The position numbers and the translations under genes are program-made. DNA of 64,000 nt from Serratia sp. FDAARGOS_506 (lineage in GTDB: Bacteria > Pseudomonadota > Gammaproteobacteria > Enterobacterales > Enterobacteriaceae): contig NZ_CP033831.1 in assembly GCF_003812745.1 (NCBI RefSeq), positions 4,216,001 to 4,280,000 on the forward strand, read 5' to 3'. Under the pieces are notes generated by a model that was not told the DNA's origin, did not search any database, and saw only the letters and a program-made list of their open reading frames with translations. Of the stretch, positions 31,160 through 49,573 are shown piece by piece. Numbering within the stretch: the first letter of the stretch is position 1; each line of letters starts with the position of its first letter.

Positions 31160-31265
31160 GGCGATAACTCTTATATGACGAATGGAATGGCGGCGCGCCC
31201 GCAGGCTGGCGCCGAATCAGCGGTAAATGATAACAGAGATGGGCAACGTTACGGGCAGCGGGCAT

Positions 31266-31290
31266 AAAAAAACCCGCCGGCGGCGGGTTT
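31266..31290 (-). terminator. Terminator of the cold-shock gene
   Basis: AAACCCGCC / GGCGGGTTT with a GGC loop and a minus-strand U-tract (A run 31266-31272), just after the csp stop at 31307. Confidence 0.88.
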
Positions 31291-31306
31291 CTTGGCGGCT
31301 CAGTCG

Positions 31307-31516
31307 TTAAATAGCAACGACGTTGGCCGCGGCTGGGCCACGTTGGCTGTCCTGGATGGAGAACTCAACCTGCTGACCTTCCGCCAGGGTCTTGAAACCA
31401 TCGCTAACGATAGCGGAAAAATGAACGAAAACGTCTTTAGAGCCGTCGGCAGGCGTGATGAAGCCGAAACCTTTGCTTTCGTTGAACCATTTAACGTGAC
31501 CAGTGATCTTGCTCAT
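31307..31516 (-). CDS. Cold-shock domain protein (CspE-like)
   Basis: 69-residue RNA chaperone, start at ATG 31514-31516 ([20 protein letters not shown]). RNP1 (KGFGFI) and RNP2 (VFVHF) are intact. It differs from the second Csp in this window (near 48.6 kb) mostly between residues 36 and 60. Which E. coli paralogue it answers to cannot be fixed by eye; location beside purT does not match the E. coli csp loci. A TATATA element at about 31574-31579 suggests a 5' leader of some 50 bases or more. Confidence 0.93.
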
Positions 31517-31690
31517 TTGTGTTTCCTTTACTTGATAAACCTGCCTTGACGGCACGAGACGCGAAAACCTTGCGATATATAGGCCTTCTTTCGCCGTCGG
31601 TTATTAACGCATAATCGCCCATGCAGGGCAAATATTTCTTCCTGTTATAAAAACAGTAAGTTAGCAACAAACTTTGCGCGGCGGCTGTGC

Positions 31691-36190: not shown

Positions 36191-36765
36191 TCCCATCGAA
36201 CTCACCGGCCTCACTGCACGCCTTTATCAGCCGTTTTCAACTGCAGCTGCCGCAGGCGGCGCAGATCTCGCACAATGTGCGCCCGGCGGCGGTGCTGATC
36301 CCTATCGTCTGCCGCGCCGAGCCGACGCTGCTGTTGACCCGCCGCGCCGATTCGCTGCGCAAACATGCCGGCCAAGTGGCCTTCCCCGGCGGTAAAACCG
36401 ACGCCGAAGACGGGTCTGCGATTGTTACGGCGCTACGTGAAGCGCAGGAAGAAGTAGCGATACCGCCGCAAGTGGTTAGCGTGCTCGGCCAAATGGCGCC
36501 GCTCGACAGCAGCACCGGGTTTCAGGTCACACCTGTTGTCGGCCTGATCCCGCCAGACGTGCAATTCCACGCCAATGAGGGCGAAGTGGCGGACGTGTTC
36601 GAGATGCCCCTGCGGGAAGCGTTGACCCTGTCACGTTACTACCCGCTGGATATTCATCGCGCCGGCCATACGCACCGCATTTACCTCTCCTGGTACCACG
36701 GCCAGTTTATCTGGGGGCTGACCGCGGCCATCATTCGACGCCTGGCTCAGCAGGTCAGTATTTAA
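36187..36765 (+). CDS. nudL: NudL, predicted CoA pyrophosphatase
   Basis: Nudix hydrolase of 192 residues, the E. coli length. A GTG start at 36187 overlaps the pabB stop (GTGA), giving translational coupling. The CoA-type signature is visible: [19 protein letters not shown] then the Nudix helix [12 protein letters not shown]. Expected to cleave CoA to 4'-phosphopantetheine and ADP. Confidence 0.93.
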
Positions 36766-36822
36766 TCCGCATTGCGTGATCTGACTCGCAATCTGGCATG
36801 GCCGTCGGCGTTCGCTGCAGGT

Positions 36823-36857
36823 AAAGCGATCGAAATCACTTCATTTGATCGCTTTTT
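36823..36857 (+). terminator. Terminator after nudL
   Basis: AAAGCGATCGAAAT pairs with ATTTGATCGCTTT around CACTTC with one bulged G, followed by TTTT. Well formed and 58 bases beyond the nudL stop. Confidence 0.85.
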
Positions 36858-36977
36858 CAACTACCGTTCCGATTGAATGGTTTTAAAAAAACTGTAAACC
36901 CTCTCTTAAACCTTACGAAATACCTGTAAAATACCACCGTCCGAGATAAACCACTGTAGAAACAGGGATTAAGCCGG

Positions 36978-37069
36978 CGGCGTTCAGCACGGAAAGCTGG
37001 CGCGATTACCACTCATGGAACTTGGGCGAAAGCGGATACCCCGCATAAGGGTTCGCCCCGGGTAATCAG
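36978..37069 (+). ncRNA. Candidate structured cis-regulatory RNA in the sdaA leader
   Basis: Two compact domains. First: GCG-TT-CAGC (36980-36988) pairs with GCTG-G-CGC (36996-37003) closing the loop ACGGAAA. Second: GATTACC (37004-37010) pairs with GGTAATC (37061-37067); inside it GGGCGAA (37024-37030) pairs with TTCGCCC (37052-37058), and inside that GCGG/CCGC (37032-37035, 37041-37044). The pairing is far better than expected in an untranslated spacer. It does not match any riboswitch class I can recall. Ligand and function unknown. Confidence 0.55.
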
Positions 37070-37211
37070 TAAAAAAAGCGACACCACGGATTATTTAATT
37101 TCATGCGAAAAAGGCAGCCGAACCCGCACGGCCCTTTTACAATATCGCTGTTCCCTGCGCGGTTTTTAACCGCTGCAGCCATAACAATACGTCTCTTTAA
37201 GGAGTTTTAGC

Positions 37212-38576
37212 GTGATTAGCGTTTTCGACATGTTTAAGATCGGCATCGGCCCGTCCAGCTCTCATACGGTTGGACCGATGAAAGCCGGCAAACAGTTTGT
37301 CGACGATCTGGTAAATAAAGGCCTGATGCCTTCTATCACGCGTGTTGCCGTAGACGTTTACGGCTCACTCTCATTGACCGGCAAAGGTCACCATACCGAT
37401 ATCGCTATCATTCTCGGCCTGGCCGGCAATATGCCGGATACCGTCGATATCGATAGCATTCCGGGTTTTATTCGCGATGTAGAACAACGTCAACGCCTGA
37501 TGCTGGCCAACGGCCTGCATGAAGTCGATTTCCCGCGCGACGGCGGCATGGTTTTCCGCAGCGACAACCTGCCGCTGCATGAGAACGGCATGCAGATCCA
37601 CGCCTTCTCCGGCGATAAAGAAGTGTACAGCAAGACCTATTACTCCATCGGCGGCGGTTTCATCGTCGACGAGGAGAACTTCGGCAAGGCCGGCGAGCAA
37701 GAGCTGCAAATGCCTTACCCGTTCAACTCCGCGCGTGAAATGCTCGACCACTGCCGCGAGACCGGTCTGTCACTGTCCGGCATGGTGATGCAGAACGAAC
37801 TGGCGCTGCACAGCAAGCAAGAGATCGACACCTATTTCGGGAACGTCTGGCAAACCATGCGTGCCTGTATCGATCGCGGTCTGAACACCGAGGGCGTGCT
37901 GCCGGGGCCGCTGCGCGTACCGCGCCGTGCCTCTGCGCTGCGCCGTATGCTGGTGGCGTCGGACAAACTCTCCAGCGATCCGATGAACGTGATCGATTGG
38001 GTCAACATGTTCGCGCTGGCGGTTAACGAAGAAAACGCCGCCGGCGGCCGCGTGGTTACCGCGCCGACCAACGGTGCCTGCGGCATCGTGCCTGCGGTGC
38101 TGGCTTACTACGATCACTTCATCGAGTCTGTCAGCCCGGATATCTACATCCGCTACTTTATGGCGGCAGGCGCCATCGGCGCGTTGTACAAGATGAACGC
38201 CTCCATTTCCGGCGCTGAAGTCGGCTGCCAGGGTGAAGTGGGCGTTGCCTGCTCCATGGCGGCGGCCGGTCTGGCCGAGCTGCTGGGCGGCAGCCCTGAG
38301 CAGGTGTGTGTGGCGGCGGAGATCGGCATGGAGCACAACTTGGGTCTGACCTGCGACCCAGTCGCCGGCCAGGTGCAGGTGCCGTGCATCGAACGCAACG
38401 CCATCGCATCGGTCAAGGCGATCAACGCAGCCCGCATGGCCCTGCGCCGCACCAGCGAGCCGCGCGTTTCGCTGGATAAGGTGATCGAGACCATGTACGA
38501 AACCGGCAAAGACATGAACGCCAAGTACCGCGAAACTTCGCGCGGCGGCCTGGCGATCAAGGTGCAATGCGACTGA
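37212..38576 (+). CDS. sdaA: L-serine ammonia-lyase (deaminase 1)
   Basis: Iron-sulfur enzyme (454 residues) converting L-serine to pyruvate and ammonia. GTG start at 37212 (read [26 protein letters not shown]). The catalytic domain has [20 protein letters not shown] and the cluster-ligand cysteines in [15 protein letters not shown]. In E. coli sdaA responds to leucine/Lrp and glycine; here a folded leader may add control. Strong terminator follows. Confidence 0.97.
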
Positions 38577-45741: not shown

Positions 45742-46153
45742 ATAAAAAGAAAACCATTTTGTTTTCGTTCAAACCTCGCGCTGTTTGTGGACAATTAACC
45801 AGCAGCGCAATTTCTTTCTGACTATTATTTCCGCAACATTGTTACCCACGTCTACATTATATTCCCGCATGAAATTAGATTAATGAAAACAAGTCTCAAT
45901 TAAGAACTAACCTTGCCTTAGAATAAAGTTGTCGGTGGCGGAAATAATATGGTATGGTTGCGCCGTCATTGGGGAGTAGCCGGTTTCTGGAGAATAAAAC
46001 GCCAGAAACGCCCGTATCAACATACTCGTTTCGCCGTATGAAACGTGGTGCGGGCAGCCAGGTAAGGTTGGCGAGACCATAGGCACGTAACTCCGTCGTT
46101 TGGTTGGGGGTGGGTTGCGTGTATATGGAGCCACCCGGCCGAGGCTATTTCAC
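45742..46153. other. yobD-mntP intergenic region
   Basis: About 410 bases. The first 200 are A+T-rich and should contain the mntP promoter; the rest is the manganese riboswitch and its expression platform. Confidence 0.65.
45965..46100 (+). ncRNA. yybP-ykoY manganese riboswitch upstream of mntP
   Basis: The leader has the class hallmark GGGGAGTAG near 45971-45979, paired at its base with TAACTCC near 46088-46094, two arms between them (GTTTCTGG/CCAGAAAC, 45983-46007, and CATACTCGTTTCGCCGTATG, 46021-46040) and the GGCGAGACC segment near 46070. E. coli mntP has the same riboswitch, which raises expression when Mn(II) is bound. About 54 bases separate it from the mntP start. Confidence 0.88.
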
Positions 46154-48484: not shown

Positions 48485-48492
48485 CGGAAACG

Positions 48493-48520
48493 AAAAAGCC
48501 CGCTCGAAGGCGGGCTTTTT
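48493..48520. terminator. Bidirectional terminator before cspC
   Basis: AAAAAGCCCGC / GCGGGCTTTTT around TCGAAG, between the convergent laccase-domain gene and cspC. Confidence 0.92.
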
Positions 48521-48536
48521 GTACAGCTGACGCTGA

Positions 48537-48746
48537 TTAGATAGCAGTAACGTTTACTGCAGATGGGCCTTTCTGGCCATCTTGGATTTCGAACTCAACG
48601 TTCTGGCCTTCAGCCAGGGTTTTGAAGCCGTTACCCTGGATTGCAGAGAAGTGTACGAACACGTCTTTGCTGCCGTCAGCCGGGGTGATGAAACCGAAAC
48701 CTTTAGACTCGTTGAACCACTTAACTTGACCTTTGATCTTTGCCAT
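48537..48746 (-). CDS. cspC: Cold-shock protein CspC
   Basis: 69-residue RNA chaperone, [20 protein letters not shown], which agrees with E. coli CspC at nearly every position. RNP1 KGFGFI and RNP2 VFVHF intact. CspC is constitutive and stabilises stress mRNAs. The small gene yobF lies 41 bases upstream, giving the yobF-cspC operon known in E. coli. Confidence 0.96.
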
Positions 48747-48787
48747 CTTGAGTATTTCCTTTGGATTGTTTAAACCGCCCGAGGGCG

Positions 48788-48904
48788 TTACATAGACAAA
48801 CTAGAGTCGTTACTGCTTGAGGCACTAAGATAAGGATCGGCAGAGAAGCGGTATTCAACGCTAACGTCTTTACTCAGAACTTCTTTACTGAAAATGCCAC
48901 ACAT
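48788..48904 (-). CDS. yobF: YobF micro-protein
   Basis: 38 codons from ATG 48902-48904: [20 protein letters not shown] followed by [18 protein letters not shown]. The first ten residues are those of E. coli YobF ([10 protein letters not shown]) and the SVEYRFSA block aligns too. E. coli YobF is a small heat-shock-induced stress protein co-transcribed with cspC. Shorter than the E. coli form at the C-terminus. Confidence 0.88.
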
Positions 48905-49573
48905 ATACAGAACTGTACCTCGTTTTACCCAGATGCGTTATCACATACTCTGTATGCGATGGCAAGCCATTTTTAATCACTGAACGACATGTCGCACATA
49001 TTTGAAACGGTCGAGAGCCACATTAGCTTAAATAGCCCAAAAGATGTTGAAGCATCGGCTATTTTCTGCTTGCCAAAATCATCGCGCCAAACCCCGCATT
49101 CTGGTGGCCTTTTAACAAAACTTTCATCGTTTTGACGCATCCCTGTTGCGACTTTTCCGCTTTTTGGCCGCTTATAGCGTTAAAAAATTTGAATCTTTAT
49201 GGAATGTAATATGCAACATTTGAATATCGATGAACGGGGGCCGATTTATTCAATGCTCCTCCGACCATTTACCGCTGGAAAGCACATTCATCGGCGTCTA
49301 TCAGACCTGCAAGCCTACGGCGCGCGCCGGAGCGTAGTGAAGACACGGGTGCCGTTGACGCAGCAGGCAACGGTTGCATAAGCATGCAAAGCTACCGCTC
49401 ACCTGGGCAGCATCATAAATAATCCGAAAGCCATTAGTCTGAATAGCCGGAATAATCCTGTGAATAGCGAAAGTACGGCGTTGAATTAAATCCTGAAAAT
49501 CGGGTGGTTAATTGAATCACCACCCGCACTTATCAATTTTGCTAATTACTGCCACGCTTTCATACCGTTGCTC
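48905..49573. other. yobF upstream region and unexplained spacer
   Basis: About 670 bases. The first 100 hold the yobF-cspC promoter and leader. A hairpin at 49031-49063 followed by T residues looks like a plus-strand terminator with no gene before it. A 60-codon frame at 49199-49381 has only a weak ribosome site and is not called. A second inverted repeat CGGGTGGT/ACCACCCG stands at 49501-49526. Confidence 0.55.
49501..49526 (-). terminator. Possible terminator of the MBL-fold gene
   Basis: CGGGTGGT / ACCACCCG with a ten-base loop, followed on the minus strand by ATTTTCAGG; 48 bases beyond the stop at 49574. The U-tract is short. Confidence 0.5.

Follow-up and report, generated by a model that had tools for sequence, protein, structure and literature searches.

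The window analysed here is a stretch of 64,000 nt from the genome of Serratia sp. FDAARGOS_506, and the segment under study (36978-37069) sits between nudL and sdaA, about 140 nt upstream of the sdaA GTG start at 37212, just where the sequence-only reading had placed it. The gene order pabB-nudL-sdaA is annotated in E. coli. All helices named in that reading are found in place, both in the sequence and in the fold. GATTACC (37004-37010) pairs with GGTAATC (37061-37067), and this outer stem encloses the pairing of GGGCGAA (37024-37030) with TTCGCCC (37052-37058) as well as that of GCGG (37032-37035) with CCGC (37041-37044). A small hairpin formed by GCG..CAGC and GCTG..CGC adjoins the outer stem at 36980-37003. 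The features discussed below are collected in Table 1.

Table 1 Features of the sdaA upstream region (window positions; T, H1, H2 and H3 are labels used in the text).
Feature	Coordinates	Strand	Remark
P1, distal promoter-like block, ACTGTAAAC ...	36891..36933	+	Conserved in homologues
H1, hairpin where the P1 transcript is predicted to begin	36937..36980	+	z -2.69
H2, small hairpin GCG.CAGC/GCTG.CGC	36980..37003	+	92.1% of cells paired; weakly supported
H3, main hairpin with a variable apical part	37004..37067	+	Compensatory changes in stems
H3 outer stem	37004-37010/37061-37067	+	98.4% of cells paired
H3 inner stem	37024-37028/37054-37058	+	Compensatory changes jointly with outer stem
Operator-like dyad TTTCATGCGAAA of P2	37099..37110	+	Pattern conserved in Enterobacterales
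T, weak terminator-like dyad AAAAGG.GCCG/CGGC.CCTTTT	37109..37138	+	-10.5 kcal/mol, z -2.19
-10-like hexamer TACAAT of P2	37138..37143	+	38 nt downstream of TTCATG; start expected at ~37150
sdaA, L-serine deaminase, 454 aa, GTG start	37212..38576	+	From the ORF list

An inspection of the sequences flanking the segment indicated two possible promoters. The hexamers of P1, assigned by eye, are TCTTAA (36904-36909) and TAAAAT (36927-36932) with a 17-nt spacer, and the predicted start lies near 36939. P1 is conserved in all 26 same-genus loci that carry the element, and 12 of 80 named loci share its pattern (Yersinia ruckeri, Y. massiliensis, six Photorhabdus and four Xenorhabdus). It ends 49-52 nt before sdaA in nine of ten Photorhabdus and Xenorhabdus loci and 176 nt before it in the remaining one, L113. 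A consensus promoter scan of 36700-37300 called no promoter, P1 included.

The second block lies closer to the gene. We found the pattern around TTTCATGCGAAA in 57 of the 80 named Enterobacterales sdaA loci, and a looser dyad pattern in 80 of 114 loci (the 80 named and 34 others, a set which leaves out most same-genus loci and the Yersinia set and holds a few species twice). A -10-like hexamer, sought 32-44 nt downstream with a list of hexamers written after examples had been seen, follows TTCATG at exactly 38 nt in 72 of these 80 dyad loci and at 39 nt in one; it was not found in seven. The sequence between TTCATG and the -10 is variable despite the fixed spacing. As a fixed spacing with variable sequence is the pattern of an activator-dependent promoter, we call this block P2 and expect its start at about 37150. 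That P1 and P2 are active promoters is what we infer from these sequence patterns. The broadly conserved control of sdaA probably sits at TTTCATGCGAAA and TTCATG, at a fixed 38 nt from the -10, in many Enterobacterales, and the protein which binds the P2 dyad could be identified. Since the element lies upstream of P2, the short transcript that P2 should give would not include it, and it would be part of the leader only in transcripts from P1 or from upstream genes.

Some further observations were made around these blocks. The dyad TTTCATGCGAAA together with TTCATG (37091-37143) has one other site in the genome at up to two mismatches. Two sequences 3' of nudL, 36776-36791 and 36823-36844, are conserved in homologues and resemble what we take to be the CRP motif. 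A possible upstream ORF at 37103-37210 was rejected by eye because homologues carry indels of 1-2 nt and a stop.

Published data for E. coli touch on the same region. There, sdaA appears among the sigma-S-bound promoters also recognised by sigma-H, with position 1894833 given for it, which is taken here as the start site (PMC4447067). If the older MG1655 numbering applies, with an offset of ~1976 derived from the lpp entry of that paper and the lpp CDS at 1757421, the E. coli start would lie ~123 nt before the gene and upstream of the P2 dyad. A 38-nt lpp leader, which we presume, enters this offset. The start so placed would give E. coli a long sdaA leader, and P2 itself is therefore not confirmed by these data. 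Another report mentions that Lrp acts on E. coli sdaA in a leucine-contingent way (PMC11774035).

The helices were tested as the sequence-only reading had named them, before any alignment existed. Two sets were used, 25 homologous leaders for the tree tests and 27 distinct sequences in an alignment of the element. Both alignments leave out L056, whose start is not recognised by the pattern, and the duplicates L035 and L047; the element alignment also leaves out L004, L006, L007 and L179-L183, where the element is missing. Over the 27 sequences, the outer stem of H3 is paired in 98.4% of cells and three of its seven pairs show double changes; for the inner stem, with 79.7% of cells paired over seven pairs, the number is also three. 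The apical GCGG/CCGC stem, paired in 52.5% of cells, is not general. In the outer stem, 13 of the 27 sequences have A-U and 14 have G-C at pair 37008/37063, pair 37007/37064 is U-A in 25 and G-C in two, and pair 37009/37062 is C-G in 24, U-A in two and U-G in one, while pair 37028/37054 of the inner stem is G-C in 12, A-U in 10 and G-U in one. Sliding the partner strand lowers the pairing from 84.7% to 30-39%, and the covariation score is 0.175 vs 0.05-0.07 with the partner slid. Three of five pairing measures beat all 500 column shuffles of the 27 sequences. Neither the pairs with a double change (9 vs 6.7 in column shuffles, 50/500) nor the further pair types (19 vs 20.5, 430/500) are in excess.

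A null model which keeps the tree and the changes per column was then applied to the 25 leaders with 1000 simulations. All named helices together hold 8 double-change pairs vs 3.79 expected (p 0.009), and H3a+H3b, a grouping chosen in the follow-up analysis, hold 6 vs 2.02 (p 0.002). Dropping the divergent L005 changes these to 6 vs 2.82 (p 0.022) and 5 vs 1.64 (p 0.006). H3a alone is significant with the same null (p 0.001, and p 0.032 without L005), and double changes in H3b alone do not exceed expectation (3 vs 1.70, p 0.22; p 0.062 without L005). An unguided covariation test of all pairs with the tree null yielded none significant, the best having an E of 0.78 and the best H3 pair one of 4.6. 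No pair of H2 changed on both sides, 8 of the 27 sequences are mismatched at one of its pairs, and its tree tests gave p 0.11 and 0.18. H2 was rejected as a conserved small hairpin for its lack of double changes. The covariation check that had been proposed for homologous leaders thus came out in favour of the main hairpin H3, whose stems taken together show compensatory changes; it came out against H2, and the unguided test of all pairs was negative. H3 as a maintained base-paired hairpin in this lineage has moderate support from these comparisons.

The segment had also been described as strongly folded. Its folding energy turned out to be ordinary: 36978-37069 has a z of -1.68 and is equalled or surpassed in stability by 13 of 200 dinucleotide shuffles, longer stretches around the element have z -0.50 and -0.59, and the mean z in homologues is -1.39 (12 of 25 distinct leaders). 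The minimum-energy fold of 36955-37145, read by eye, does not include H3. Of the leader parts tested the best folded is H1, for which none of 200 shuffles was as stable (z -2.69) and which keeps a mean z of -2.67 in homologues (12 of 25). The inner pairs of H1 are kept above the tree null (p 0.008); its double changes are not in excess (p 0.37). H1 and H2 compete for base 36980. When the 25 leaders are folded without the P2 region, the outer stem of H3 has a mean pair probability of 0.85 and the inner stem one of 0.79; folded without the P2 segment, the means are 0.70-0.85 across H2, H3a and H3b, and they drop to 0.43 (H2), 0.58 (H3a) and 0.68 (H3b) with the P2 segment to 37143 included. In the full context from P1 to T, the outer stem of the Serratia window itself has a pair probability of 0.41. 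H3 is predicted not to form in L043 and L044 (near-zero probability), and in five further leaders the outer stem falls below 0.1 in this context.

Four loops, ACTCATGGAACTT, ATACC, ATAAGG and ACGGAAA, had been put forward as candidate conserved loops. The changes per base, summed over the 25 aligned leaders, speak against this: ~2.5 for ACTCATGGAACTT, ~1.6 for ATACC, ~3.5 for ATAAGG and ~2.9 for ACGGAAA vs ~1.2 for the whole aligned leader, with 0.6 in the outer and 1.9 in the inner stem. None of the four shows the strongly conserved loop or junction bases that would be expected of a ligand-binding riboswitch. The segment and the A-rich stretch after it are the most variable part of the aligned leaders. 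With gaps treated as a state, 36974-37067 has 10-38 changes per 12 columns, 37068-37079 has 33 and 37080-37163 has 2-10.

The range of the element is narrow. When 30 genomes of the same genus were searched at the DNA level, the sdaA region was matched in 27 and had no match in the other three; 26 of the 30 carry the element, as 24 distinct sequences. The remaining genome with a matched region, the reduced 2.5-Mb G175 (L056), has a degenerate segment which gives no match to the covariance model. In that genome, the pabB-sdaA region is eroded, no nudL occurs in the stretch read and the P2 dyad is altered. Near neighbours were drawn from a sample of 149 family genomes. Both genomes of the neighbouring genus that holds G016 have the element. 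Only one of seven genomes of the genus of G078 (locus L178) keeps it; the segment is missing in three (L006, L179, L180), and three further genomes have other sequence there. It is missing from G032 (L004) as well. Relatives that keep the surrounding sdaA leader are among those without the element, and its absence from G032 and three genomes of the G078 genus means that it is dispensable.

A covariance model of H2-H3 found one strong place in the window's own genome (94 bits), the next reaching 20 bits with an E of ~1, where 150 of 3475 first-look candidates were scored. DNA and covariance-model searches of the genome gave a single strong place, and a repeat or mobile element was rejected on that account. 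Among the 149 family genomes, with strict filters, strong matches came only from G000 and G025, both of the window's genus, and from G016, and the next-best match has an E of 0.0135. None of the 80 named sdaA loci matched, in a collection that may leave out records near the window's genome. Neither several copies at metabolically related genes nor a wide range was found. In Yersinia, the P1 block and the AACC/GGTT stem of the H1 region recur in the leaders. A matching structure was sought there in 25 genomes (18-20 distinct leaders folded) and rejected, as the folds differ with little covariation. None of the three gathering-level matches of Rfam 15 in the window is near the element, and up to E 10 only a chance match to DdR7 at 36820-36918, outside the element, appears in 36760-37300. 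The claim of a structured element upstream of sdaA with no Rfam assignment was borne out. Literature searches returned no paper with "sdaA motif", none with sdaA and Term-seq, and, among the papers listed, none naming the element.

On balance, we lean slightly towards reading the element as a structured part of the P1 leader that is specific to this lineage, a spacer RNA with no ligand pocket. The sdaA gene would have two promoter-like blocks, the distal P1 (start ~36939) and the proximal P2 (~37150), conserved through much of Enterobacterales, and transcription of what lies between them would depend entirely on P1 or on read-through from nudL. In such transcripts, H1, H2 and H3 could fold consecutively. 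As the stems of H3 are kept and the loops are not, H3 probably has a structural role rather than being a ligand-binding aptamer, and it may keep the 5' region folded, stabilising or insulating it. Both the making of this RNA and a function of the hairpin are presumed here. Structured 5' leaders are known as a general class in genes with tandem promoters; the present case is like them in that hairpins would occur only in the distal-promoter transcript and that the loops evolve fast, and unlike them in that we found no paper on this sdaA element and that its function is proposed here from inference. H3 thus looks like a real but fast-changing local hairpin of one bacterial group, not a new metabolite sensor, which would tell a real but local RNA hairpin apart from a tempting riboswitch call.

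A DNA-level or neutral origin is less probable, yet it deserves a minority share of belief. In that case the inverted repeats would lie in an untranscribed P1-P2 spacer, and the apparent compensation would come from conversion between repeat arms or from chance in one clade. The fast sequence change, the absence in relatives, the ordinary folding energy and the lack of any significant pair in the all-pairs test would all agree with it. It is harder to reconcile with the outer stem, where pairing reaches 98.4% and three pairs carry double changes, and with double changes that exceed the tree null in both sequence sets, with and without L005.

The dyad T suggested a cis-regulatory attenuator, in which the hairpins of the P1 leader and T would decide whether P1 transcripts reach sdaA. 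Like intrinsic terminators and attenuators, T combines a GC stem with tracts of A and U. Of 12 sequences tried, 11 are predicted to form a stem here (L178 in another register), and the pairing of T is above the tree null (p 0.004), with double changes at p 0.22. Read by eye, the fold of 36955-37145 offers an alternative to H2, H3 and T in which 36973-36985 is paired with 37120-37132, in line with the lowered pair probabilities. However, T differs from intrinsic terminators in having only four U, in overlapping the P2 spacer and in having no supported antiterminator. The alternative pairing 36973-36985/37120-37132 was rejected as an antiterminator because it is compensated in one sequence only. 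The terminator scan asks for a GC-rich stem and, after it, five or more T within a window of eight; it did not call T on the + strand, giving only a - strand version at 37133-37116. The overlap of T with the P2 spacer, between the operator-like dyad and the -10, might be another explanation for it. T also occurs in relatives that have no H2-H3 (L004, L006, L179, L180); as it is found in close relatives with and without H2-H3, it is independent of the element. We consider the attenuator doubtful. The fuller form, in which H1-H3 and T make up an undescribed group-specific attenuation element that renders distal-promoter transcription of sdaA conditional beside a conserved activator-type P2, seems to us rather improbable.

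Least of all do we expect a riboswitch for serine, glycine or one-carbon compounds, as had been suggested for this segment, and we regard it as very improbable: the position upstream of sdaA, the conserved pairing and the glycine riboswitches that control sdaA in some other bacteria (PMC3766115) would favour it, but unlike those leaders, with which it shares only a structured stretch upstream of sdaA, the element has no Rfam match at gathering and none up to E 10 beyond the chance match outside it, its would-be ligand loops change fast, one strong copy exists in its own genome, its range among those searched is two genera and one further genome, and it sits upstream of P2 and is absent in close relatives whose sdaA regulatory sequences are kept. 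The structural spacer remains our preferred reading.

Apart from the element, the three Rfam matches elsewhere in the window are a yybP-ykoY manganese riboswitch at 45959-46142 (+) and two cspA thermoregulator leaders at 31264-31676 (-) and 48490-48921 (-). Insertions of ~95-130 nt were seen in the sdaA leaders L113, L087 and L107 (Photorhabdus luminescens, Hafnia alvei and Salmonella enterica subsp. diarizonae), and these presumably resemble ERIC-type repeats.
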